Below, in pieces: positions 742 to 44,029 of a stretch of DNA of 62,552 nt. The stretch's first letter is position 1; every line of letters begins with the position of its first letter. Source of the DNA: Pseudobacteriovorax antillogorgiicola (GTDB lineage Bacteria; Bdellovibrionota_B; Oligoflexia; Oligoflexales; RGVZ01); assembly GCA_945865565.1 (NCBI GenBank), contig CAMBEK010000009.1, positions 1-62,552 of the forward strand, given 5' to 3'. Under the pieces are notes generated by a model. It saw only the letters and a list, made by a program, of their open reading frames with translations, was not told the origin of the DNA and did no database searches. A program made the position numbers and the translations under genes.

Positions 742-1407
742 TCAGGCGGGCGGGGAGGCCTCAAGGCGCAGGAGTTCATCGCCCGAGGAGACGCTCGCTC
801 CGACCTTCACGGTGACGGATGTGATTTTCACACGAGCAGGGGCCAGGATGCGGTTTTCCATTTTCATGGCCTCGATCACAAGCAGCAGGGTGCCTTCTTC
901 GACGACCGTGCCTTCAGTGGCGCTGATGCTTAAAACTTTGCCTGTGATTTGAGAGCGCAAGACGGGACTTCGAAGCCCCTTGTCCTTGCGCTTGTTCTTA
1001 CTCCCACCATTTTCTGCGGATCCAGATGCTGCGCCCATTCCAGGAATGAATTTAGCTGCCGCAGCCTTGATGCTGCTCGACGTGCTGCTCGATGATTTCT
1101 CTCCACTAACCGCTGGTAAAAAACATTCGATGTCGCATGTGGCCTCTGCCTCGCCTGCGAACCTTGTGACGCGCATCGTGCGGACCGGAATAGAATGTTC
1201 GACCATGGAATGTTCGATCATGGTATGTTCGATTTTTGACGGATCCAGTGCCGACAAGCTTAAAACGGAATTCACACGGCTCCAGCGGGCCATATATCCA
1301 CGACCATCAACCGTGACATGAAAAGGCTGACCGTCGGCCAGATGATCAGGCATCTCGACCACGAGGGGCTCGGTACCTTTTTGATCCAGCTGGATTTGAA
1401 TTTTCAC
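742..1407 (-). CDS. Biotin carboxyl carrier protein of acyl-CoA carboxylase
   Basis: This 221-residue protein carries the biotin that shuttles CO2 between the carboxylase and carboxyltransferase subunits encoded just upstream. The C-terminal ~75 residues form a biotinyl domain with the canonical EAMKM motif, whose Lys is the biotinylation site. The N-terminal half is unlike AccB of E. coli and resembles the linker region of a split PccA-type alpha chain. It includes a Ser/Ala-rich stretch and the short repeat IEHTMIEHSMVEHSI made by a 15-bp tandem repeat. It is the last gene of a three-gene minus-strand operon, 49 bases after the biotin carboxylase. Whether the enzyme uses acetyl-, propionyl- or another acyl-CoA cannot be told. 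Confidence 0.88.
   Translation of the reverse strand: MKIQIQLDQKGTEPLVVEMPDHLADGQPFHVTVDGRGYMARWSRVNSVLSLSALDPSKIEHTMIEHSMVEHSIPVRTMRVTRFAGEAEATCDIECFLPAVSGEKSSSSTSSSIKAAAAKFIPGMGAASGSAENGGSKNKRKDKGLRSPVLRSQITGKVLSISATEGTVVEEGTLLLVIEAMKMENRILAPARVKITSVTVKVGASVSSGDELLRLEASPPA
1193..1237 (+). repeat. 15-bp tandem repeat x3 inside BCCP gene
   Basis: Units gaatgttcgaccatg, gaatgttcgatcatg and gtatgttcgattttt follow each other and encode, on the minus strand, the EH-x-M repeats of the carrier protein. It is in frame and lies outside the biotinyl domain. Confidence 0.85.
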
Positions 1408-1456
1408 GGTGTCTCCTGATGTCTTATGGCGACGCCCTCAAGGGTCGCGCAGAATT

Positions 1457-2998
1457 CTAGCTTCTGAAATTTCGCAGAGCGGCAAAGCGCGCCGCGTCCG
1501 CCCAACGGCTGCCAACCTCTTTGGATGCTTTTTCCTTTTGCGATGGCGTTGCGTCGGACGTCATCATGAATCCGATGGCGGCCAAGATGGCAGCCGCGTC
1601 ACTGCCAAGGTTGCTGGCTGAATTTCTCTCAAAAAAAGCGTCAAACCAGGACTGTTCTTCCTCGAGAAATTTCGTCGTCACGTCGCCTTTGATAAAGGCC
1701 GGGTGTTGGAGCAAGGCCTCATGAAACTTCGCAGTGGTGGGCACGCCCGATACCTGAAGTTCCGCGAGGCAGCGTTGAGCGCGCGCCATGACTTCCTCTC
1801 GCGTCGCACCCGTCACAATCATTTTCGCAACCATCGAGTCATACTCGGACGGGATGGTGTAGCCAGGATACATGTGGCTGTCGATCCGGACGTTTGGGCC
1901 AGCGGGAAATACCAGTTGTGCCACGCGGCCCGGGGCCGGAGCAAATCCCTTCGCCGGATCTTCTGCGTTGATGCGCAGTTCCATGGCGCAACCGCGAAGG
2001 ACAATGTCTTTTTGGGTGAAAGGCAATTTTTCGCCGCAGGCGACCAAAATCTGCTGACGGATCAAGTCCACGCCGGTGATGCTTTCCGTTACCGGGTGTT
2101 CGACTTGAATGCGCGTGTTCATCTCCATGAAGTAAATTTTTTCAGGAGAATCACAGATAAATTCAATGGTGCCGGCATTGCTGTAGCCCGCCGCCTTTGC
2201 GGCCTTCACGGCAGTGGCGCCAAGGGTGTCACGTTGGGCCTGATTTAAAAAGGGACTGGGGGCCTCTTCGACCAGTTTTTGATGGCGGCGTTGGATGGAA
2301 CAATCGCGCTCGAACAAGTGAACGCCGTTGCCATGTTCGTCAAACAAGACTTGAATTTCAATGTGGCGCGGGCGTTCTATGTAGCGCTCACAAAAAACAG
2401 CCGGGTTGCCAAACCAGGCCAGAGCCTCGCGCTGGCAAGCGGTCAAAGCTGGTGCGATTTCGTCATCGCGGCGGACGACGCGCATTCCACGGCCACCGCC
2501 GCCGGCAGCCGCCTTTAAAATTAGTGGGTAGCCAATCTGGCCGGCAATGGATTTGATTTCTTCGGGCGACTCAAGTGGTTGATCCGACCCGGGAACTACC
2601 GGAACTCCGGTTTTCTTCATCAGGGTTTTTGCGGCAATCTTGTCGCCCATGAGGCGCATGGCGGCTGGCGATGGACCAATGAACTTCGCCCCCGCGGCGG
2701 CGACGGCTTCTGCAAATTCAGCATTTTCAGACAGAAAACCATAGCCAGGGTGGACCGCGTCGGCGCCCGACGTTTTGATGGCCGCAACCAGTGCTGGCAC
2801 GTTCAAGTAGGTATCGGTGGACAGGCGTCCCGGCAAACGAATGGCCATGTCGGCCAGACGAACATGCATGCTGCTTTCATCGGCGTCGGAATATACGGCG
2901 ACGCTTTGAATGCCGAGTTCTTTTAAGGCGCGGATGACGCGAACCGCAATTTCGCCGCGGTTCGCGATCAGGACGCGTTTAAAGCGGGATGTTGCCAT
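1457..2998 (-). CDS. accC: Biotin carboxylase subunit of acyl-CoA carboxylase
   Basis: This 513-residue ATP-grasp enzyme carboxylates biotin with bicarbonate and ATP. The N-terminus [19 protein letters not shown] is the family signature. The glycine-rich ATP loop [12 protein letters not shown], the catalytic region [14 protein letters not shown] and the FAPAPGRV segment of the C-terminal domain are all present. It is longer than AccC (~450) but lacks the fused biotin domain of PccA, which is encoded separately downstream. I chose the ATG at 2998 because GGAG lies 7 bases before it; a longer reading frame would start at 3022. It overlaps the end of the carboxyltransferase gene by 20 bases, implying translational coupling. 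Confidence 0.92.
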
Positions 2999-4610
2999 GC
3001 TTGCGCTCCGGTCCCCGTTCACGTTTGCCGCGACAGGCCCGCAAGCCTGCGATGATTTGCCCGCGGGTTTCTTCGGGCAGAATCACGGCGTCGATGTAGC
3101 CTTTGGCGGCTGCAATATAAGGGTTGGCAAATTTTTCCGCGTATTCCTGCGCAAGTTCCTGGCGGCGCGCGTCGGGATTTTTTGCTGCAGTGATCTCGCC
3201 ACGGAAGATGATGTTGCAGGCCCCTTGGGCGCCCATCACGGCAATTTCAGCGGTCGGCCAAGCTAGATTAACATCGGCGCCAATGTGCTTGCTGCTCATG
3301 ACGTCGTAGGCGCCGCCGTAAGCCTTGCGGGTGATCACCGTCAACTTCGGAACGGTGGCCTCGCAGTACGCGTAAAGAAGTTTCGCGCCGTGGCGGATGA
3401 TTCCATTTTTCTCCTGGTCGCTGCCCGGAAGAAATCCAGGGACATCGACCAGCGTCACAACGGGGATGTTGAAGGCGTCGCAAAACCGGACAAACCGCGC
3501 GCCCTTCACCGAACTGTTGATGTCCAGCACGCCGGCCAGATGGGCGGGGTTGTTGGCGACGATGCCAACCACTTGACCTTCAAATCGTCCGAAGCCCGTA
3601 ATGATATGCGGCGCGAAATTCTTTTTTATTTCAGTGAAAGATTCCGGATCGACGATTCCGTGAATCACTTCCAGCATCGAGTAAGGTTGATTCGGGTTTG
3701 CAGGGATCACGCTGGCAAGTTTCTTTGCGTTGGCCTCGATCTGGCTGTGCCATTCTGGATTTTCTGATGGTGACGGTGTCGCGGTCACGGGCGAGCCATC
3801 CAGATTGTTTGACGGCAAATAGGCCAGGAAATGACGAATTCCTTCCAGTGCCTCGGCGTCATTTGAATACTGCCCATCGGCCACGCCACTTAGCGCCGTG
3901 TGCGTGTGGGCGCCGCCAAGATCATCAAACGAGATCTGTTCGCCGGTGACGGTCTTGATGACGTCCGGGCCAGTGATAAACATGTGGCTGGTTTGATCCA
4001 CCATGAAAACAAAGTCGGTCATGGCGGGTGAGTAAACGGCACCACCGGCACAGGGGCCCATGATGACCGAGATCTGCGGAATGACGCCCGACGATTTTAC
4101 GTTGCGCAGGAATATTTCAGCGTATCCGCCCAGGCTTGCGACGCCTTCTTGGATCCTGGCGCCACCCGAGTCGTTGATGCCGATCACAGGAGCGCCGTTC
4201 TTGACGGCGAGGTCCATGATCTTGCAAACCTTGCGCGACACGGTGGCCGACAGGCTGCCGCCAAAGACGGTGAAGTCCTGGGAGAAAACGTAAATCACCC
4301 GGCCCTGGACGGTGCCGTGGCCAGTGACGACGCCGTCCCCAAGGATCTTTTTTTCGTCCATGCCAAAATCCTGGCAATCGTGAGTGGCAAAGGCGTCGAG
4401 TTCAACAAAGCTGCCGGCATCGAGCAGGACTTCAATCCTTTCGCGTGCGGTCAACTTGCCCTTGCTGCGATGGGCTGCCAGACGTTCCGGGCCGCCGCCC
4501 ATGCGTGATTCTTCGCGCATGGAAAGGAGTCTTGCGCGTGGGTCGAGCTTATTGTGATCTTTCGGGAGATCCGGATTGCCTTTTGCTTTCGACATCGTTT
4601 CGTTTGCCAT
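2979..4610 (-). CDS. pccB: Acyl-CoA (propionyl/acetyl-CoA) carboxylase carboxyltransferase subunit
   Basis: This 543-residue protein transfers the carboxyl group from biotin to an acyl-CoA. It contains both crotonase-like halves of a PccB-type subunit. The N-terminal half has [18 protein letters not shown] and [15 protein letters not shown]; the C-terminal half has [24 protein letters not shown] and [14 protein letters not shown]. It is the first gene of the three-gene carboxylase operon. The ATG at 4610 has AGGGA about 10 bases upstream. Length and motifs favour PccB over the split AccA/AccD type, so propionyl-CoA (methylmalonyl-CoA production) is the likelier substrate, but the specificity residue was not resolved. 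Confidence 0.92.
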
Positions 4611-6991: not shown

Positions 6992-7765
6992 TCAATATCT
7001 GAAATGCTTGATGGTTTCCCCTTGGACCCCTATTTCTGTCATGGCTTGGATGCCAATTTCAAGGTGCAAGTCCACGTAATTGGCCGTGACACTGCGGTCG
7101 CTGTCCTCGGTCTTGACGCCTTCGGGGGTCATTGGCACGTCGGACACCAGCAGCAAGGCACCCCGGGCGATCTCGTTGACGAGGCCGACCGAGAAAAGGG
7201 TCGCCGTTTCCATGTCGATGCCGATGACCCGCAATTCCTTGAGCCTTTCACGGAACACGGAATCGTGTTCCCAGACCCGGCGGTTGGTCGTGTAAATGAC
7301 TCCCGTCCGGTACTCGAGGCCCGCGTCGACAATTTTTTCTGAGACAAATTTATGCAGTTTGAAGGACGGCATGGCAGGGACTTCCGGCGGAACGTAGTCG
7401 TTCGACGTGCCCTCGCCACGAATGGCAGCCATGGGAAGGATGAAATGTCCGATTTCCGTTGATTTCTTTACGCCGCCGCATTTGCCAAGGAAAAGAACGC
7501 CTTCCGGCTTTACGGCCGTCAGCAAATCCATGATGGTCGCCGCATTGGCAGATCCGATTCCGAAGTTGATGATGGTCAGGCCGTCGCGATTTGTGGCCGT
7601 CTGCATGGGGCGGTCCTTGCCGCGCATGGGCACATCAAACCGCTTGGCGAATTTTTCCACATAGTTGTGAAAGTTGGTCAAGAGGATGTACTTGCCAAAT
7701 TCCTCGAGTGGGGTTCCGGTGTAGCGAGGCAGCCAGTTTTTTACGATTACGTCTTTATCGTGCAT
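6992..7765 (-). CDS. AMP nucleosidase (phosphorylase superfamily)
   Basis: This 257-residue enzyme is predicted to cleave AMP to adenine and ribose 5-phosphate. It belongs to the PNP/UDP phosphorylase fold. Visible are the Gly-rich core INFGIGSANAATIMDLL, the LFLGKCGGVK segment and VIGIDMETATLFSVG, the Glu-containing purine-site motif of the superfamily. The N-terminal PLEEFGKYILLTNFHNYVEKF is typical of the short AMP nucleosidase form. I chose the ATG at 7765 because GGAAGGGA lies 5 bases upstream; a frame extension to 7807 has no good ribosome site. Other phosphorylase specificities cannot be ruled out. It may share a transcript with the coiled-coil gene 44 bases downstream. Confidence 0.82.
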   Translation of the reverse strand: MHDKDVIVKNWLPRYTGTPLEEFGKYILLTNFHNYVEKFAKRFDVPMRGKDRPMQTATNRDGLTIINFGIGSANAATIMDLLTAVKPEGVLFLGKCGGVKKSTEIGHFILPMAAIRGEGTSNDYVPPEVPAMPSFKLHKFVSEKIVDAGLEYRTGVIYTTNRRVWEHDSVFRERLKELRVIGIDMETATLFSVGLVNEIARGALLLVSDVPMTPEGVKTEDSDRSVTANYVDLHLEIGIQAMTEIGVQGETIKHFRY

Positions 7766-7880
7766 GGATTCCCTTCCGTATTGTGGAAGTCTGAGAACTT
7801 TCGACATATAGTATCACGATATCAGATATTTCAATGCGGTCATTGATGTTGGGCAACGATCTTAGGCGACGAGGTTCCTT

Positions 7881-10568
7881 GTGACGGCTAACCTTCGAAC
7901 GAAGTTGATGCAAAAAAGATCCCTTCGTGCAGCGGTAAACGCAGAGCGCAGGGGAAATCCCCTGGCCCTGCTGAAGGAAATTGTTGCGGTCACGCGGGCA
8001 ACGACACGGCTCACGGCCCTGCGCATTCCGTTGGCAGTTGGCAAGTCGTTATGGTCAGATCCGGCCATCGACGGCGCCGGAAATCCCACCCGGACTCTGG
8101 AAGTATTGGGTTCCGCCCTCCTCGATTACATCAACGACCTTGGTCCGATTTACGGCAAAGCTGGTCAGATCCTCCTGAGCCGCCTTGATCCGGAGCGCCA
8201 GGAACTGGCAGCCAAACTGCAGCTCGACCGGCTTTATGGCCAATGGCCGGCCCTGGGAATCGACGAGGTCCTTGAAATCATGGACCGTGACGTTCCCGAA
8301 TGGCGCAAATACCTGAAGCGGATCGAAACAATGCCCCTCGGTATAGCCTCCATCAGTCAGGTTCATGCGGCAACGGATCACGAGGGCAAGGAGTGGGTCG
8401 TCAAAGTCATAAAGCCCGAGGCCCACAAGCGCCTTTCCGAAACGGTCGATGCCATGGAGCAGATTTTGGCTGTCCTGGAACCGTTGACCGTGACGCGGGC
8501 CTCGAAAAAGGCCGTGGGCGAGGCTCGGGAACTCTGTGAATCCTATCGTGGCGAGCTTTCTTTGCGACGCGAACTGGACACCATCCAGCGGGTGCGGTCG
8601 GCAATGAATGACGGGCGCAAACAAAAACTTTTGCGGGTTCCCCGCGTGTTCGAGGAATGCTCTTCGGACCGTGTTCTTTTGGTCGAGCGTTTTCGCGGGG
8701 TTTTATTTTCTGACGTGGTCAGTGGACGTGCCACGATTGACCCGTCGCGCCGCTCGATGCTTGCCCGAAAGGTTTTGCAGGATTTGCTAGTCCAGGTTTT
8801 TGAGTTGGGCCTGTTTCATGCGGATCCCCATGCCGGCAATTTGATCATGATGGACGATGGAACGGTCGGGCTGTTTGATTGGGGACTCAGTGGTGAACTT
8901 TTGCCGTCCGACCGGCGGCACATTGCGTCCGTTTTGCGCGCTCTGATTAGCGTTGATTTGGATGGCCTGGTGGATGCCCTGGCTGGAATTGCCGAGGAAT
9001 CCGGGCGCGAGGTGGATCGCAAGGAAATTGCCCGCGAATTGCGTGGGTTCACCAGCAGCCTTAAGGCCAAAAAGACTAGCAAAGAGACGTCCAAAGAGGC
9101 GGACAAAGAGACGTCCAAAGACACGCAAACATCTGATGCTTCGGCGCCGAAGGCCGAAAAATCCCAGTCCCTGCACAAGATGTTGGATCAATGCCTGCGG
9201 GCAGCCGATCGCCTTGGCATTCCTGTGCCGTCGGGGCTTTTGATGATGGCAAAGACCCTGGTGACCATTGAGGGTTTGGCCCGCGGCATTGATCCGGACA
9301 TCAAGCTGGCCTATGCGGCGACGCCGGTGCTGCTGCGCGTGGCACGTCCAAGCCTTCGCGATTGGTTCAGACTGGCCGGAAAATTGCCGTCTTTGATGAA
9401 GCAATTCAGTAAAATTCTGGTGGCGGGTGTTGGGATGTCGGCGATGGCTCTGGGCCCCCTAGTCCCAGACCTTAATGCTGCAACGGCGATTTTGGGTGAC
9501 AGCCTTGCCACGGGCGGCGCGACCCATCCCCAGCTTTCTTACGACCCGCAAAATATCTGGCGCATCATGAATGGCAGCATTTCGTTGACGGCAAAAGTCA
9601 GCGATATTCCATCGGCCACGGAGTGGAATATCAAGGAGCAAAATCCAGCGGCACCGGTTTCCCTGTTGGCGGGGGTTTCTGAATACCGGGGTTCTACGAG
9701 CAATGTTTTTAGCGCCTTGATTCAGTCGGGTGTGACGGCATTTTTGGGGACTGCCCAGTATGCTTGGGGCTATTTGTTAGCCCGGAAATTTGGCGAGGCA
9801 CCGGATCAGATTTTATTGGCGGCAGAGGACGGCGCCAGGATGGAAGACGCTCCGGCGCAAGCCTGGCGCGTGGTCAATCACGTGGGCGATCACGTGAAAG
9901 GCAAAGGTGTCGGAGAAGGAAGTCTTGCGCGGGTCATGATGCTTTTTGGCGGCAATGATATTTGCGCGCCGGCATACGAGTCGATGACAGAGCCGGCGCA
10001 GTTCAAGGCGTCGGCGTTGGACGCCATGCGGATTTTTATGGCACATCAAAAGGACCGCAGCACCAATTTGGAAATCATGGTGGTGCAGCCGCTGCCCATG
10101 GTGCAATTGATTGCCAGTGATCTGGTCTTGAACAAAAAAGTGATGGCCTATGGCGAGGAGACGACTTGCAAGGACCTGCAGGGGCGGATGTTTTTGCCCA
10201 AAAAGGCGATGGATTTGGGAGAGGCTCCGGACGCCCGGCAGGTGGCGTTGATTTCGCAGTTTCTGCCGCCCAATCCAGCCCTGATGTGCGCCACCCTGTT
10301 TGGACGGGTCGCAGAGGGTGGGGGAGACCGTTTTTCGAAAATCGGAAACCGGCTGCGGGCCTTGCGCGATGCACTGTCGGGTGCCGTGGCGGATGCGCGC
10401 AAAGAGGCAGCACGTGCCGGACTGGCCGATCGGATTTCCTTTAAGCTGATCGAGTCACCAGGGAAGATCGAGCTGACGGCTGACGACATTGCAGGGGATT
10501 GTTTCCACTTGTCGGCCAAGGGGCAGGCAATGCTGGCTCGGACGATCCTGGCGCCGCCGGCGATCTGA
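7881..10568 (+). CDS. ABC1/UbiB-type atypical kinase fused to an SGNH/GDSL hydrolase
   Basis: This 895-residue protein has two domains. Residues ~70-500 are an ABC1/AarF/UbiB atypical kinase: KAGQ motif (YGKAGQILLSRLDPE), an Ala/Ser-rich loop IASISQVHAA, invariant Lys in VVKVIKP, catalytic HADPHAGN (313-320), and LFDWG in place of the usual DFG. A Lys/Thr/Ser/Glu tandem-repeat linker sits at ~398-415. A hydrophobic segment at ~511-535 (ILVAGVGMSAMALGPLV) resembles a signal sequence or membrane anchor. Residues ~536-895 have the SGNH blocks: GDS (Ser541), GGND (Asn692) and DCFH (Asp873, His876), closest to phospholipase B/GDSL lipases. The GTG start has GAGG 6 bases upstream. I infer a cytoplasmic kinase linked to a periplasmic lipid esterase. 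Confidence 0.85.
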   Translation: MTANLRTKLMQKRSLRAAVNAERRGNPLALLKEIVAVTRATTRLTALRIPLAVGKSLWSDPAIDGAGNPTRTLEVLGSALLDYINDLGPIYGKAGQILLSRLDPERQELAAKLQLDRLYGQWPALGIDEVLEIMDRDVPEWRKYLKRIETMPLGIASISQVHAATDHEGKEWVVKVIKPEAHKRLSETVDAMEQILAVLEPLTVTRASKKAVGEARELCESYRGELSLRRELDTIQRVRSAMNDGRKQKLLRVPRVFEECSSDRVLLVERFRGVLFSDVVSGRATIDPSRRSMLARKVLQDLLVQVFELGLFHADPHAGNLIMMDDGTVGLFDWGLSGELLPSDRRHIASVLRALISVDLDGLVDALAGIAEESGREVDRKEIARELRGFTSSLKAKKTSKETSKEADKETSKDTQTSDASAPKAEKSQSLHKMLDQCLRAADRLGIPVPSGLLMMAKTLVTIEGLARGIDPDIKLAYAATPVLLRVARPSLRDWFRLAGKLPSLMKQFSKILVAGVGMSAMALGPLVPDLNAATAILGDSLATGGATHPQLSYDPQNIWRIMNGSISLTAKVSDIPSATEWNIKEQNPAAPVSLLAGVSEYRGSTSNVFSALIQSGVTAFLGTAQYAWGYLLARKFGEAPDQILLAAEDGARMEDAPAQAWRVVNHVGDHVKGKGVGEGSLARVMMLFGGNDICAPAYESMTEPAQFKASALDAMRIFMAHQKDRSTNLEIMVVQPLPMVQLIASDLVLNKKVMAYGEETTCKDLQGRMFLPKKAMDLGEAPDARQVALISQFLPPNPALMCATLFGRVAEGGGDRFSKIGNRLRALRDALSGAVADARKEAARAGLADRISFKLIESPGKIELTADDIAGDCFHLSAKGQAMLARTILAPPAI
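9075..9122 (+). repeat. 12-bp tandem repeat x4 inside kinase-hydrolase gene
   Basis: Four imperfect 12-bp units encode TSKE-TSKE-ADKE-TSKD in the linker of the ABC1 kinase domain. The unit is a multiple of three, so copy changes would keep the frame. Confidence 0.8.
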
Positions 10569-10574
10569 GCTGAG

Positions 10575-10623
10575 GCGTCATCCTGAGCCTCACTCCGTCA
10601 TCCTGAGCGTTAGCGAAGGATCC
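10575..10623 (-). repeat. REP-like hairpins, reverse orientation
   Basis: A half unit (gcgtcatcctgag, 10575-10588) and a full unit (ccgtcatcctgagcgttagc then gaaggatcc, 10595-10623) follow the kinase-hydrolase stop codon. They read in the opposite orientation to those at 10829-10934, so the units face each other across the palindrome of composite copy 2. Confidence 0.8.
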
Positions 10624-10632
10624 TTTCTTAAC

Positions 10633-10739
10633 CCGTCATTCTGAGGCCGTAGGCCGAAGAATCCTTTCTTCTTCGCCGCGCGACAGGATTTTTTGGTTTC
10701 GTCTCAGTAGGACTGATTCTCGACTTTCCGCGGAAAGTC
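10633..10739 (-). repeat. Composite palindromic repeat, copy 2 (inverted)
   Basis: The reverse complement of this stretch matches copy 1 (533-639) and copy 3 (43832-43935) along its whole length. The terminal palindrome gactttccgcggaaagtc is at 10722-10739. The REP-like hairpin at 10633-10664 has loop stems GGCC/GGCC and arms ATTCT/AGAAT. In the GC-rich hairpin the stem is tcgc/gcga here against tccgc/gcgga in copy 1, a paired change that keeps base pairing. This copy is not next to an HNH gene. Confidence 0.85.
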
Positions 10740-10828
10740 CCATTGTCAGACTGCAATCGATGCGGCTTCGGGGGTCATCGTCGCCGCCTACTGCTTTCCT
10801 ATTTCTGTCAAAAAAAAATTTAAAGAAA

Positions 10829-10934
10829 GGATCCTTCGCCTGCGGCTCAGGATGACGGAGTAAGAAAGGATCCTTCGCTAACGCTCAGGATGACGGAGTA
10901 AGAAAGGATCCTTCGCCTGCGGCTCAGGATGACG
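10829..10934 (+). repeat. Three REP-like hairpins in tandem
   Basis: Full units at 10829-10858, 10868-10896 and 10906-10934 are spaced 38-39 bases apart. The first and third have stem GCC/GGC around TGC; the middle one has GC/GC around TAA. They lie between the kinase-hydrolase gene and the stop of the convergent PilZ gene. Bases 10740-10828 between palindrome and array contain no gene and a run of eight or nine A. Confidence 0.85.
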
Positions 10935-11502: not shown

Positions 11503-11530
11503 TTGACACTTTTGGCGGGCTCTGTTAACA
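11503..11530 (+). promoter_or_regulatory. Possible promoter of tRNA-Leu
   Basis: A perfect -35 hexamer TTGACA at 11503-11508 is followed 16 bases later by TTAACA, a weak -10. Transcription would begin a few bases before the tRNA at 11544, which is the right distance. Confidence 0.4.
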
Positions 11531-11543
11531 CCAGTGACGTTTG

Positions 11544-11631
11544 GCCACCTTGGCGGAACTGGTAGACGCGCTGGATTCAAAATCCAGTGGGGTTAACCCT
11601 CGTCCGAGTTCGATTCTCGGAGGTGGCACCA
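11544..11631 (+). tRNA. tRNA-Leu (anticodon CAA)
   Basis: The acceptor stem GCCACCT (11544-11550) pairs with AGGTGGC (11621-11627), followed by the discriminator A and an encoded CCA. The anticodon arm ctgga-ttcaaaa-tccag gives anticodon CAA, reading UUG. A long variable arm and the T arm (ctcg... gttcgattc) complete a class II tRNA of 88 bases with CCA. Confidence 0.96.
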
Positions 11632-11650
11632 AACACTTCTTCTTTTTCCT

Positions 11651-11682
11651 CTTCTTCTTCTTCTTCTTCTTCTTCTTCTTCT
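11651..11682 (+). repeat. CTT trinucleotide microsatellite
   Basis: Thirty-two bases of uninterrupted (CTT)n lie 20 bases after the tRNA and end 3 bases before the stop codon of the convergent membrane-protein gene, preceded by a pyrimidine-rich stretch. Confidence 0.95.
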
Positions 11683-11685
11683 GAA

Positions 11686-12351
11686 TCATTCTTTTTTCAA
11701 TCGATGAAAAAACACGCAGAGCATGACGGACATCACCGCGGCACTGATGCACCAAATTGAGATAAAAGCATAATACGATACCGTGTAACTGATGATTCCA
11801 GCGACCGTGGTGCAAACGCCAAATGCTTTTAGTTCTTTGCTAGTGCTGGCGATCAACGGAACGAGAATAATCGTCGCGTAAAATATGTGCCAGGCTGGTG
11901 CCGGTAAAGTCGAAATCAAGGGTAGGTAGTTGAAATGGTACTGAATCGAATGACGGGCGACGGTCGTGGTCAGTTGCCCCTCCGCTGGATCGACGACCGG
12001 TAAATAAAGCATCAGACCAAAAATCAAACCCAACATTGCCATGACGGCGAATGCCCGCTTCAGGGCTTTCCTTTTTTCAATGAGGGCGATGCTGAGCGGG
12101 ATCCACCACAGCCAAAAAAAGAGTGCGAAAAAGAGAAATCCAAAAGCGCCCGCAAGGGAAAGGTTGGGATTGTTTTCATGGATTCCGAGCCAAACAAGGC
12201 CTTCGCACAATTGTTGGATTCCGAACGCGCCTGGAATGAAGGACAAAGGGATATAGCGGTGGTTATTTTTGACGGCCTTCGTCGTGCAGTAGACGCCTGC
12301 CAAAAGAAGGTTGGCACCAGTAAACGTGCTGATTTCTGGCGAATAGCACAT
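11686..12351 (-). CDS. Seven-helix-type membrane protein, DUF6629 family
   Basis: This 221-residue integral membrane protein has roughly seven hydrophobic segments spread over its whole length. The N-terminus MCYSPEISTFTGANLLLAGV and the motif QQLCEGLVWLGI at about residues 46-57 are the conserved features I associate with DUF6629, a family of unknown function. The basic C-terminal end FFHRLKKE would face the cytoplasm by the positive-inside rule. It stands 33 bases upstream of nothing on its strand, but follows the DUF962 gene (start 12699) in the same direction with a 33-base gap, so the two may be co-transcribed. Confidence 0.8.
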   Translation of the reverse strand: MCYSPEISTFTGANLLLAGVYCTTKAVKNNHRYIPLSFIPGAFGIQQLCEGLVWLGIHENNPNLSLAGAFGFLFFALFFWLWWIPLSIALIEKRKALKRAFAVMAMLGLIFGLMLYLPVVDPAEGQLTTTVARHSIQYHFNYLPLISTLPAPAWHIFYATIILVPLIASTSKELKAFGVCTTVAGIISYTVSYYAFISIWCISAAVMSVMLCVFFHRLKKE

Positions 12352-15954: not shown

Positions 15955-17334
15955 TCAGGGAAACCGTGCGCCGTTGTCTTCCTCACCTTCGACGACGCTC
16001 AAAGTGTCTGCGTCCACGTCTGCCAGGATTTGGCGATAGGATGTATTTGATCCGGCAAATGCCGACAAAATCTTTACCGAAGGCGGCGCATCGTCAAAGG
16101 GTGCCGGTAGTGCATTGCTCATGACATCGGCATATTTTGACGCCGGCGATCCCGGATTGGCCGCCTTCACTTTTTCGTTCAGGGCGGCGTTCATGTAGTC
16201 AAAAGAATTGCATCCGTCGAAAAAATACAAGCGATACAATCCTGCTGGATATTCCAGGAAGTCAAACAGTCCGCGAATGTTGCGTCCATAACCGGAATGA
16301 CCACCGTAATAAATGAACTCTGCATCTCGCGATGCTGCGCCGATAACTTCGGGATTCGCCATGCCTTCAATGGAATCCACCAAAAGCATTTTAACTTTCA
16401 TGGTTTTGGTTCCATCAGTGCCGATGTTTCCAAAAATTAATTCAGCACTATTTTTTTCTGGAAACGGACCTTTTCCATCGCCGTATATTTTTGCGCCGTT
16501 TGTGCTCTTGCCAAATGCATTCATCAGATTGGCGTAGGCCCGGTTGAATTCAGCGCTGCCCACATCGTCTGGACTGTTGGATCCGGGTGCATCCTTCGCA
16601 TAGATCAAGAGGGCGTTCATTTGACCGTCCTCCCACACGCGATCGTATTCAGGGTTTTTATCGGGTTTTGCGGGTTGAAGGACTGCTGCAATGCGTGATC
16701 TCGATACCGGGATTGTGCTCATGTTCAGGATGCCATAGGCCGTTCCTGGGCCAGAGGCCAATGGTGCCAGTGGACACTTGCTTTCCTCTGGCCGGTAATG
16801 CCATGGATTTGAAATGTCCGTTTCTTCGCCGTCGTTGCAGTTTTCGCTAAATGTTTCAGTGAATTTCGTGAACCCTGTCCCCTTCACGGTGCCCGGCATG
16901 ATGACGGAAAATATTTTTGGAAACTCCGTGCCCTTTGGCCAAGCCATGGTGAATCGAACGCTGTAGTGGACTTCCACGAGATTTCTGCCAGACACCGGTG
17001 CGTCTAAGTCGGACCCGGTTCGGCTGATGATAGTAATTTGTGCGCGATTGAAATCAGATCCAGCCGATCGACCTTTAAGTTGGCCGACAAAAAAATACTT
17101 CAACTGCATGCGGATCTGATCCATCACGGCGTCATTGTCCGTGGCATCAGATGCTTCAATCTGAATGACAGCGTCGGGGATGACTGCGTCCAGAAAGTCG
17201 GCCGTGGCGGAAAGGTTGCGCAGGTCGCTGGAGACTCGCGATTTACAGCCCGAGAGCAGGACGATCATGGCCATCCCCATCATCCTGAGCCTTAACCCCG
17301 TCATCCTGAGCGTAGCGAAGGATCCTTTCTTCAT
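15955..17334 (-). CDS. Lipoprotein with a caspase-like His/Cys pair
   Basis: This 459-residue protein has a lipobox LLSGC after a hydrophobic stretch, so it is a predicted lipoprotein. Near the C-terminus the segment FIYYGGHSGYGRN (His346) followed by LYRLYFFDGCNSFDY (Cys375) resembles the His-Gly...Cys dyad of clan CD proteases (caspases, gingipains). Strand-like hydrophobic segments lie before both, as in that fold. This is a motif reading and needs structural support. The first ~12 residues (MKKGSFATLRMTG) are encoded by a REP-like repeat, so an alternative start within MMGMAMIVLLSGC is possible. No operon partner. Function unknown. Confidence 0.75.
   Translation of the reverse strand: MKKGSFATLRMTGLRLRMMGMAMIVLLSGCKSRVSSDLRNLSATADFLDAVIPDAVIQIEASDATDNDAVMDQIRMQLKYFFVGQLKGRSAGSDFNRAQITIISRTGSDLDAPVSGRNLVEVHYSVRFTMAWPKGTEFPKIFSVIMPGTVKGTGFTKFTETFSENCNDGEETDISNPWHYRPEESKCPLAPLASGPGTAYGILNMSTIPVSRSRIAAVLQPAKPDKNPEYDRVWEDGQMNALLIYAKDAPGSNSPDDVGSAEFNRAYANLMNAFGKSTNGAKIYGDGKGPFPEKNSAELIFGNIGTDGTKTMKVKMLLVDSIEGMANPEVIGAASRDAEFIYYGGHSGYGRNIRGLFDFLEYPAGLYRLYFFDGCNSFDYMNAALNEKVKAANPGSPASKYADVMSNALPAPFDDAPPSVKILSAFAGSNTSYRQILADVDADTLSVVEGEEDNGARFP
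17298..17325 (-). repeat. REP-like hairpin forming the 5' end of a lipoprotein gene
   Basis: The unit ccgtcatcctgagcgtagcg then aaggatcc lies inside the lipoprotein reading frame. Read on the minus strand it encodes roughly residues 4-13 of the signal peptide n-region, and a second partial unit continues to about 17281. Confidence 0.85.
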
Positions 17335-41780: not shown

Positions 41781-41851
41781 GCGTCATCCTGAGCTGCGCT
41801 TTGCGTCATCCTGAGCGTTCACCCGTCATCCTGAGCGTTAGCGAAGGATCC
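41781..41851 (-). repeat. REP-like hairpins, reverse orientation
   Basis: Two half units (gcgtcatcctgagc at 41781 and 41803) and one full unit (41823-41851) follow the exonuclease stop codon. Their orientation is opposite to the units at 42361 and 43907, so the HNH locus is enclosed by units facing inwards. Confidence 0.8.
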
Positions 41852-41878
41852 TTTCTTCAACGCCGCCAGCGAATGCTT

Positions 41879-42010
41879 CATTGGGCCGGCGCTCGCCCAT
41901 GGTGCCCCCCGCAGTCGCGTCATGCGCAAAGTGCTCCTCAACTTTTAACACCAAATTCCGTGCCGCGCATGACCGCTCTGCGGGGCCTCCCATGGCCGGC
42001 TGCCCCAATG
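41879..42010. repeat. Long imperfect inverted repeat
   Basis: Arms 41879-41927 and 41965-42010 are imperfect reverse complements. The outer ends are cattggg/cccaatg, the middle ccatgg, gcccc-cgcag, and the inner ends gtcatgcgc/gcgcatgac, separated by a ~37-base loop. No gene is recognised here. The rest of the 745-base gap 41775-42519 contains REP units, a palindrome core and otherwise nothing identifiable. Confidence 0.65.
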
Positions 42011-42074
42011 GATCCTTCGCCGGAGGCAGCATTGTGCCTTCGAATACGAAAGTCACGGATACGCGACCGGGAAT

Positions 42075-42090
42075 ACTTTCCGCGGAAAGT
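42075..42090. repeat. Palindrome core actttccgcggaaagt
   Basis: This is the inner 16 bases of the 18-bp palindrome that begins the composite repeats at 533, 10739 and 43832. Here it stands alone, without the rest of the composite, 430 bases upstream of the complete HNH gene. Confidence 0.88.
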
Positions 42091-42360
42091 CGCGGGCTAT
42101 CCGATGCTAGGCGATGCGATTATCATTTCTGATGTATCCGATTTTTCTTGACAGGAAAATAGAGGCCATTTTTCGCAAACGATTTGCGTCCTTGCTGGCT
42201 AGCGTTTTCGCTATGGCAGACGTCCAAATTAAGGCGTAGATCGACGGGAAATAATTTTAGCCGACGGTGCAGGTCCGCACTGCGAACCGGCGACGGCAGA
42301 CCGCTTTGCGCGATCCAAAAAAACCCGTGGTAAGAGTTTTATGCGACGCATGCGAAGAAA

Positions 42361-42470
42361 GGATCCTTCGCTAACGCTCAGGATGACGGGTGGGAATGCA
42401 GCAGGATGACGGGTGGGAATGCAGCAGGATGACGGGTGGGAATGCAGCAGGATGACGGGTGGGAATCTAG
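42361..42470 (+). repeat. REP-like hairpin followed by 23-bp tandem repeat x4
   Basis: A full REP-like unit (42361-42389) runs into four 23-bp units with core ggatgacgggtgggaatgca (42379-42401, 42402-42424, 42425-42447, 42448-42470). The tandem unit begins with the end of the hairpin, so it arose by amplification of a REP edge. There are no variable spacers, so it is not a CRISPR array. Confidence 0.92.
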
Positions 42471-42519
42471 TAAAATGACGGCAATGGCGGATGGAACGAT
42501 AAAACAGACGAGGTCGAAT

Positions 42520-43815
42520 ATGGAATTGATAGAAATCGGTGCGACAAAAAAGCTTTCCGATGCCGATCTGACCACGACGTTGAAAAAAGCCATCGCCGCA
42601 GAGCGCAATAACATTGCGACGTCCATCGCATGCCTGATTGAAATCACGGCGCGTGATCTGCACACCCGGATGGGCGCGTCGTCGCTTTTTGTCTACCTGA
42701 CACGCGAGTTGAAGATGTCGGAATCGTCGGCATCGAAACGCTGCGCTGCAATCCGTGCCGTTCGCGATTTCCCGGAGATATTGCCGCTGATTCAATCTGG
42801 CGGCCTGCACCTTTCAAATATTTCGCTGATCTCACGCCATCTGACGCGCGAAAATGCGGCGCGTTTGATTGGCCTGGCGCAAACGGAAACCCAGCGGGGA
42901 CTTGAAAAGGCGTTGGCTGTTGAATTTCCTGTGGTTGCAAAACGCGACATCCTGCGTCCGGTGGTCTGCACGTCGCAGCGCAGCACCTTTGCTCTGCGAG
43001 TTGGCGATACGGCGCGATTTGATAACCGCAGTGACGATCGGCGTGATACCGACGAAAATTCCAGCGACCAAGCTAGCGAAAGTTTTGATGGTGGTGCCGG
43101 CGAGTCGCACTTGGGGTTTTTTGCATTGGAAGGTGCGGCGCCGCAGGCGACGCTGGGGGTTCGCGTGCATGCCACCCTCAATGCCGAAGCGGCGGAGGCT
43201 CTGGAGTTTCTTGCGGGGGCGATGCCCGGAAGATCGGCGTCCGAAATTTTATCTTTGGCCGTTTGTGAACTCCGCAGGCATCGTGATGCGGCGCGTCGGA
43301 TTCCCATGAATCTCAAGAAGGTGGCAAAGGACAAAAAACCTGAGTTTGAGACGTCAGATCGTGAAGTATTGGAACGCAAAAAAAAGTTGTTTGAAAAAAA
43401 AGCTACCACCAAAAACACTCTCATAAAATTGGGAGCAAAAAAACGCGTAGCTGAAAAATTCGCAGAGCCATCGAAGGCCAGTCGCTATATTCCCACGGCG
43501 TTGCGCCGGGCAGTGGCGCAGCGTGATGAATACCGCTGCAGCTATGTTCCTCACGTTACCTCTATTGAAGGCGTTGACGGCGTTGAATTCAACGATGCCA
43601 ACGTAAATGGCGCGGGAGAAATTGCGAATGGAAATTCTGAAGCGAAGCGCTGTGAAGCCATCCACCGCCTTGAATTTGATCACGTGACGCCGCGGGCGTT
43701 TGGGGGACAAAATACCTTGGGGAATTTGCGGCTGCTTTGTCGCGCCCATAATAATTTGGCGGCGAAAGACGCGATGGGAAAAGAATTTATCGAAGCGCAT
43801 TTTGGGCGAGGCTGA
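42520..43815 (+). CDS. HNH endonuclease with N-terminal helical domain (complete copy)
   Basis: This 431-residue protein combines an N-terminal helical domain (SDADLTTTLKKAIAAERNN ... LIEITARDLHTRMGASSLFVYLTRELKMSES) with a variable middle region. A C-terminal HNH nuclease domain follows (RDEYRCSYV ... LEFDHVTPRAFGG ... NLRLLCRAHN, about residues 335-411). The first Cys pair normally seen in related HNH domains is reduced to one Cys. This architecture is common and often multicopy in Bdellovibrio-like genomes. I chose the ATG at 42520 with GAGG 6 bases upstream; the frame is open to 42436 through repeat DNA. A composite palindromic repeat starts 16 bases after the stop. Substrate and function are unknown; a selfish-element or DNA-processing role is possible. 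Confidence 0.88.
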   Translation: MELIEIGATKKLSDADLTTTLKKAIAAERNNIATSIACLIEITARDLHTRMGASSLFVYLTRELKMSESSASKRCAAIRAVRDFPEILPLIQSGGLHLSNISLISRHLTRENAARLIGLAQTETQRGLEKALAVEFPVVAKRDILRPVVCTSQRSTFALRVGDTARFDNRSDDRRDTDENSSDQASESFDGGAGESHLGFFALEGAAPQATLGVRVHATLNAEAAEALEFLAGAMPGRSASEILSLAVCELRRHRDAARRIPMNLKKVAKDKKPEFETSDREVLERKKKLFEKKATTKNTLIKLGAKKRVAEKFAEPSKASRYIPTALRRAVAQRDEYRCSYVPHVTSIEGVDGVEFNDANVNGAGEIANGNSEAKRCEAIHRLEFDHVTPRAFGGQNTLGNLRLLCRAHNNLAAKDAMGKEFIEAHFGRG

Positions 43816-43831
43816 CCACGGGGAGGCCTGG

Positions 43832-43935
43832 GACTTTCCGCGGAAAGTCGAGCATCAGTGCTTCTGAGACGAAGTCGAAAAATCCTGTCCCGCGGCGGAG
43901 AAGAAAGGATCCTTCGCTAACGCTCAGGATGACGG
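43832..43935 (+). repeat. Composite palindromic repeat, copy 3
   Basis: Palindrome gactttccgcggaaagtc (43832-43849), the TCAG/CTGA hairpin, the GC-rich element and a REP-like hairpin at 43907-43935 occur in the same order and orientation as copy 1. In this copy the REP hairpin is the ATCCT/AGGAT, GC-TAA-GC type. Confidence 0.88.
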
Positions 43936-43937
43936 AG

Positions 43938-44029
43938 CGGCTCAGGATGACGGGTTAAGAAAGGATCCTTCGCTAACGCTCAGGATGACGGAGCGGCTCA
44001 GGATGACGGGGTGGTACTCAGGATGACGG
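43938..44029 (+). repeat. REP-like hairpin cluster after composite copy 3
   Basis: One full unit (43963-43991) and three half units ending in ggatgacgg (43938-43953, 43994-44009, 44016-44029) follow copy 3 in the same orientation. Confidence 0.82.

Follow-up and report, generated by a model that had tools for sequence, protein, structure and literature searches.

An Oligoflexales gene joining an ABC1 kinase-like domain to an AOAH-like SGNH/GDSL hydrolase through a signal-peptide-like segment

In the window, by which we mean the whole 62,552-nucleotide stretch of DNA analysed here, a single open frame of 895 codons encodes, in this order, an ABC1 kinase-like domain, a signal-peptide-like stretch and an SGNH/GDSL hydrolase (Table 1). 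The frame coincides exactly, on the plus strand, with the gene delimited in a preliminary description made from the sequence, and the motifs lie where that description had placed them, namely KAGQ at residues 93-96, Lys175 and HADPHAGN at 313-320, to which DWG at 333-335 can be added, as well as S541, N692, D873 and H876 of the SGNH set. That an ABC1-type kinase and an SGNH hydrolase occupy one polypeptide is borne out by Pfam domains, by these motifs and by the presence of both folds in a predicted model. The GTG start and a purine-rich ribosome-binding site just upstream are kept in both other species that carry the fusion (see below), one of which has, by eye, AGGAGG instead of GAGG at equal spacing. 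Searches of Rfam revealed no RNA elements at the fused locus itself, and a literature search did not find ABC1-GDSL fusions described.

Several other features of the window were recorded. A dispersed repeat with the core TCATCCTGAGC, often extended to GCGAAGGATC, occurs at 10578-10932, 663-730, 17280-17311 and 41784-44006; the core has 17 exact copies in the window versus 0.05 expected, and the genome holds 43 longer copies, often clustered and in inverted pairs. The reverse strand of 11525-11815 encodes a run of lysines and overlaps a predicted tRNA (11544-11628, plus strand). At 742-4610 lie genes for a biotin-carrier protein and two carboxylase-like proteins (naming by eye) that probably constitute an acyl-CoA carboxylase set; in family f10, two loci (L049 and L052) carry homologues of these genes, there flanking the hydrolase on its opposite side.

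Table 1. Features of the fused gene and its divergent neighbour (window coordinates).
Feature	Position	Strand	Basis or remark
AMP nucleosidase gene, divergent; marks the orthologous locus	6992..7807	-	NF005500 384 bits, cut-off 264
Ribosome-binding site GAGG	7871..7874	+	By eye
Fused CDS, 895 aa, GTG start	7881..10568	+	Uninterrupted open frame
ABC1 kinase-like Pfam match, residues 128-364	8262..8972	+	PF03109 129.1 bits, cut-off 22.9
Lys/Glu/Ser/Thr-rich insertion in kinase C-lobe, residues 396-435	9066..9185	+	Poorly conserved, length-variable in alignments
Internal signal-peptide-like segment, residues 506-533	9396..9479	+	MKQFSK / ILVAGVGMSAMALG / PLVPDLNA
Candidate signal peptidase site LNA^AT, before residue 534	junction	+	(-3,-1) pattern
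AOAH-like SGNH/GDSL hydrolase domain, residues 534-895	9480..10565	+	Pfam, family alignment, fold
Ser541, predicted nucleophile, GDS block	9501..9503	+	Ser in 27/30
Asn692, predicted oxyanion residue, GND block	9954..9956	+	Asn in 28/30
Cys695	9963..9965	+	30/30 members
Cys763	10167-10169	+	30/30 members
Cys803	10287-10289	+	30/30 members
Asp873 and His876 of DCFH, predicted acid and base	10497..10508	+	Asp 28/30, His 29/30; one of the 30 sequences incomplete there
Cys874	10500-10502	+	29/29 members with a residue there

The kinase module as a whole comprises residues 1-505. Its predicted model matches MSMEG_1954 (7cz2; Z 21.7, 290 residues, 3.2 A) and COQ8A (Z 20.4), and K93, Q96, K175, E225, E231, D315, N320 and D333 are invariant among 12 kinase members. 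Residues 415-426, in the C-lobe insertion, have a pLDDT below 50. G95 of the KxGQ motif is Met or Leu in the four kinases (L041, L044, L045 and L050) encoded next to a separate hydrolase gene in the sister genus g2 (see below); these read YGKAMQ or YGKVLQ, unusual in a motif that defines ABC1 proteins. The earlier designation as an ABC1/UbiB kinase holds in its first part, given the PF03109 match, the motifs and the fold, but not for UbiB itself: the kinase half scores 199.8 bits against the UbiB equivalog model TIGR01982, whose cut-off is 487.55. Three to five other ABC1 matches are present in the genome, and one of these is far closer to UbiB and the better candidate for it (TIGR01982 390.1 bits). 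Judged by its sequence, the kinase half is ABC1-type and kinase-like, a predicted ATPase and not UbiB proper. ABC1/UbiB proteins are atypical kinases/ATPases, and COQ8 and its relatives have been proposed to couple ATPase activity to the extraction or deposition of hydrophobic lipids at the inner membrane (PMC8346625); because of this proposal, we infer that the kinase half may likewise act on lipids.

The hydrolase half matches Lipase_GDSL (PF00657) at 18.5 bits over residues 538-887 in the full protein and at 22.0 bits when the C-terminal part is searched alone, narrowly missing the curated cut-off of 23.6; all 30 members of the hydrolase family match PF00657 (E up to 0.1, best 1e-11), and NCBIfam assigns the half to no family. 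The Ser, Asn and Asp-x-x-His blocks are conserved and in order, the Gly of block II not being pinned down, and in the model Ser541 opens the helix following the first strand. A putative catalytic geometry is supported by the fold match and by the sequence in which the blocks appear along the predicted strands and helices. Three unfused homologues (L020, L030 and L033) carry Gly, Asp or Arg at the catalytic Ser position and retain the His and the cysteines; they are possible inactive members. The four cysteines listed in Table 1 are the sole ones of the hydrolase half.

The model of the hydrolase half alone (pLDDT 88, pTM 0.87) retrieved acyloxyacyl hydrolase (AOAH), an LPS-deacylating enzyme of animals, by Foldseek (E 1e-6) and by VIA (Z 21.0, 271 residues, 4.9 A; next SGNH structure 17.1), the full-length model gave Z 20.9 for AOAH, and the top solved structures matching this half are all SGNH/GDSL-type enzymes. 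The single hydrolase sequence returned chance matches only when searched against the PDB, AOAH being reached via the family profile and the fold; the profile placed mouse AOAH first (E 0.0038) over one 79-position stretch that includes NGAS...GNDVC. No meaningful PDB match was obtained for L060, a Bdellovibrionales relative that is more distant. Pfam reports no saposin domain, and the hydrolase half begins directly after the signal-like segment. As the saposin domain is absent, we refer to the hydrolase as AOAH-like and not as AOAH. The preliminary description had spoken of a phospholipase-B-like esterase, of which the SGNH fold and blocks stand, but AOAH, and not a generic phospholipase B, is the nearest solved structure; neither Pfam, NCBIfam nor the fold list names a phospholipase B family for this half. 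AOAH strips acyl chains off LPS; in vitro, it also attacks phospholipids, displaying phospholipase A1/A2/B activity (PMC8594946). Bacterial AOAH homologues were not found described in a literature search. A lipid is the likely substrate of the hydrolase half.

In a set of 96 related genomes, three species of one genus, that of the window included, have the hydrolase half inside a single frame of 894-904 codons. The two species besides that of the window have stop-free frames that (894 and 904 codons) and align end to end with that of the window, are 71-78% identical to it and join the two halves at the identical point. A fourth species (G001) was left out, its contig ending within the kinase. 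Between the fused species dN was 0.11 versus a dS of 1.70 in the kinase half, 0.17 versus 2.23 in the hydrolase half and 0.27 versus 1.54 at the junction, where the excess of third-position changes is weaker yet clear; dS is saturated in all of these comparisons, so that their direction alone is meaningful. Both halves of the fused frame are under purifying selection, and the junction is so more weakly. Since the fused frame recurs in two more species, it is due neither to chance nor to a frameshift, and the same join in three species disposes of the concern, raised at the outset, that a sequencing error had merged two genes. The fusion is a new architecture, specific to one genus of uncultured Oligoflexales, made from two already known enzyme families.

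The relatives indicate how the fusion came about. In two other Oligoflexales groups, the sister genus g2 and family f8, the kinase gene is followed by a separate, adjacent and co-directional hydrolase gene; several of these pairs share 4 bases between the stop of the kinase and the start of the hydrolase (for example ACATGATG), and in others a gap of up to about 60 bases separates the two. The unfused g2/f8 kinases end in KLPGLARQMMAT before the stop. In the alignment, the fused counterpart of this end is ...KLPSLMKQFSK, at which the hydrolase signal peptide starts. As read from this alignment, the junction is the former kinase C-terminus joined to the former hydrolase signal peptide, and the fused gene arose from two adjacent, co-directional genes. 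Kinase and hydrolase reside at different loci in families f6 and f9, and a tree unites the fused, the adjacent and the separate f6/f9 kinases in one subfamily. In families f2, f5, f10 and f11 the hydrolase is present and a kinase of the fused subfamily was not found; in 383 genomes from outside Oligoflexales, searches detected no member of the kinase subfamily and, for the hydrolase family, weak partial matches only. The named contigs with matches are mostly from Oligoflexales or Oligoflexia metagenome genomes.

A divergent AMP nucleosidase gene adjoins the hydrolase or kinase-hydrolase locus in 18 compared loci, kinase-less ones included, and the fact that this neighbour is kept even without the kinase indicates that the locus is orthologous. 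Most simply, the kinase entered between nucleosidase and hydrolase and fused later, a direction that we infer. This divergent arrangement of nucleosidase and hydrolase locus is retained in many families of Oligoflexales. The stem branch is longer in the hydrolase half than in the kinase (1.85 versus 0.73 changes per column), which could reflect relaxed or altered function; the hydrolase tree does not resolve the deep order or, with it, the exact sister of the fused clade.

The segment between the halves had been noted to look like a signal sequence, and indeed it does, as it descends from the signal peptide that the hydrolase had when its gene was separate. With two Lys, an apolar core of 12-14 residues and a (-3,-1) site it resembles the N-termini of unfused hydrolase relatives, most of which begin with a signal-like segment (a comparison of 17 of 26 sequences, the window segment being read by eye against G003 and G002). 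In the other two fused species, too, the hydrolase is preceded by two lysines, an apolar core of 12 residues and sites with small residues; an LNA^AT-type site is found in two of the three fused species, and in the third the c-region differs and offers several candidates. With a mean KD of 1.25-1.56, the hydrophobicity of the 19-residue segment is no more than moderate, which is closer to what a cleavable signal shows than to a strong anchor; owing to this moderate hydropathy and to some 505 folded-type residues upstream, its recognition as an internal signal is not assured. Residues 504-536 are poorly conserved (dN 0.38-0.53), and in the full-length AF2 model a junction pLDDT below 50 and a global pTM of 0.54 leave the relation between the two domains undefined. 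The cysteines, invariant and even in number, fit disulfides and hence the periplasm, and together with the predicted export of the unfused relatives they favour a periplasmic hydrolase. An N-in/C-out topology, with the kinase inside and the hydrolase outside, is probable on these grounds. Given this topology, the balance tips a little towards cleavage at LNA^AT, which we slightly favour over a permanent tether; as the segment is inherited and still looks cleavable, the two halves may no longer be covalently linked once the protein is mature.

The explanation that accounts best for these data, and that we hold to be rather likely, is a gene fusion that places a cytoplasmic kinase, an internal signal and a periplasmic lipid esterase in one frame. 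Residues 1-505 would form a cytoplasmic kinase-like ATPase of the ABC1 type, located on the cytoplasmic side of the inner membrane, and residues 506-533, once the signal peptide of the hydrolase, would now serve as an internal Sec signal, thereby moving the AOAH-like SGNH esterase (534-895) into the periplasm. There, the hydrolase, with two disulfides and a Ser-His-Asp site, would remove acyl chains from a membrane lipid, be it a phospholipid, a lysophospholipid or a lipid A type lipid. Fusion would hold ATPase and esterase at a 1:1 ratio and, with an uncut segment, would target them together. The earlier adjacency of the genes points to a shared lipid task, and their merging suggests that both halves serve one membrane-lipid task; that ATPase and esterase are functional partners is an even bet, and since several families have the hydrolase without this kinase, such a partnership is not obligatory. 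The coupling of ATP use to lipid hydrolysis that the preliminary description put forward is a hypothesis. A single-chain transmembrane machine, in which the ABC1 ATPase extracts or presents lipid to a tethered periplasmic AOAH-like deacylase for lipid remodelling in Oligoflexales, is an improbable form of this coupling.

The strongest competitor, tentative and clearly less probable than the fusion with an exported hydrolase, is that the segment acts as an uncleaved signal anchor, giving one mature membrane protein that works as a coupled machine, with the ATPase inside and the esterase outside, as the preliminary description had pictured it. That three species have the single frame, the positive residues flanking the segment on the kinase side and the membrane association of UbiB relatives, proposed to perform ATP-driven extraction or deposition of hydrophobic lipids (PMC8346625), are consistent with such a tether, but the apolar core of just 12-14 residues is followed by a proline and small residues, and the LNA^AT site in two of the three species, with several candidates in the third, recalls the cleavable signals of unfused hydrolases. 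Were the signal defunct, as its distance of about 505 residues from the N-terminus and the poor conservation of residues 504-536 might suggest, the whole protein would be cytoplasmic and the hydrolase would act, if at all, on the inner leaflet; this is unlikely in view of the four invariant Cys that the fused forms keep and of the fact that all three species retain a hydrophobic core with lysines beside it and candidate sites for cleavage. Less likely still is the production of the fusion plus a separate exported hydrolase restarted at the ATG at 9396 (MKQFSK): ATG-Lys-Gln sits exactly at the old hydrolase start in the window and in G003, downstream of a weak GGAAAA or AGGAAAG at long spacing, but G002 has TTG at that start and no ribosome-binding site, for which reason we down-weight a restart, and no upstream stop codon is present for coupled re-initiation. 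An assembly or sequencing artefact that joined two genes is of negligible probability, for although the assemblies are metagenomic and relatives carry two genes, three independent copies at 71-78% identity share the join point and codon-level constraint.

The role of ABC1/UbiB-type ATPases is a long-standing question, and the fusion names a concrete candidate partner for one ABC1 branch, the halves that are separate, adjacent or joined across relatives being Rosetta-stone type evidence for a link between this branch and an exported lipid-type esterase. Moreover, an AOAH-like catalytic domain occurs inside Gram-negative bacteria, and the fused gene offers a natural, putative internal signal peptide, for which cleavage or retention is directly testable.

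With the ABC1/UbiB/COQ8 proteins (MSMEG_1954, Rv3197, COQ8A), the kinase half shares the Pfam domain, KxGQ, the invariant Lys, the paired Glu, the HxDPHxGN and DWG motifs and, in the predicted model, the fold. Unlike them, it belongs to a subfamily of its own, confined to Oligoflexales among the genomes searched, the unfused members of which are without the C-terminal transmembrane pair (by eye); moreover, the fused kinase falls far under the UbiB equivalog cut-off and is followed by a hydrolase. AOAH (PDB 5w78-5w7f) is the closest fold (Z 20-21) and top profile match to the hydrolase half and has NGAS...GNDVC with its Cys in common with it, but identity over the aligned core is 12-14%, and the hydrolase here is bacterial, saposin-less and preceded by a kinase-like domain. 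ChoE, PlaA, the Vibrio thermolabile hemolysin and TesA share the fold and the Ser/Asn/Asp-His blocks, yet they score under AOAH (Z 15-17) and are without a cytoplasmic ATPase module. The cytochrome b/c1 polyprotein FbcH of Bradyrhizobium is encoded by one gene for inner-membrane and periplasmic parts and is cleaved after an internal signal. The fused gene likewise combines inner-membrane-side and periplasmic parts around an internal signal, predicted in our case, whereas the FbcH parts are subunits of a respiratory complex and their cleavage is established, that of the fused protein being a candidate only. Among known multidomain ABC1 proteins, Usp-ABC1 of Nitrosomonas and RIO1-ABC1 of Thermoplasma (PMC1262709) also join ABC1 to another domain, but their partners are N-terminal and of other kinds, whereas here the partner is a C-terminal hydrolase that is predicted to be exported.
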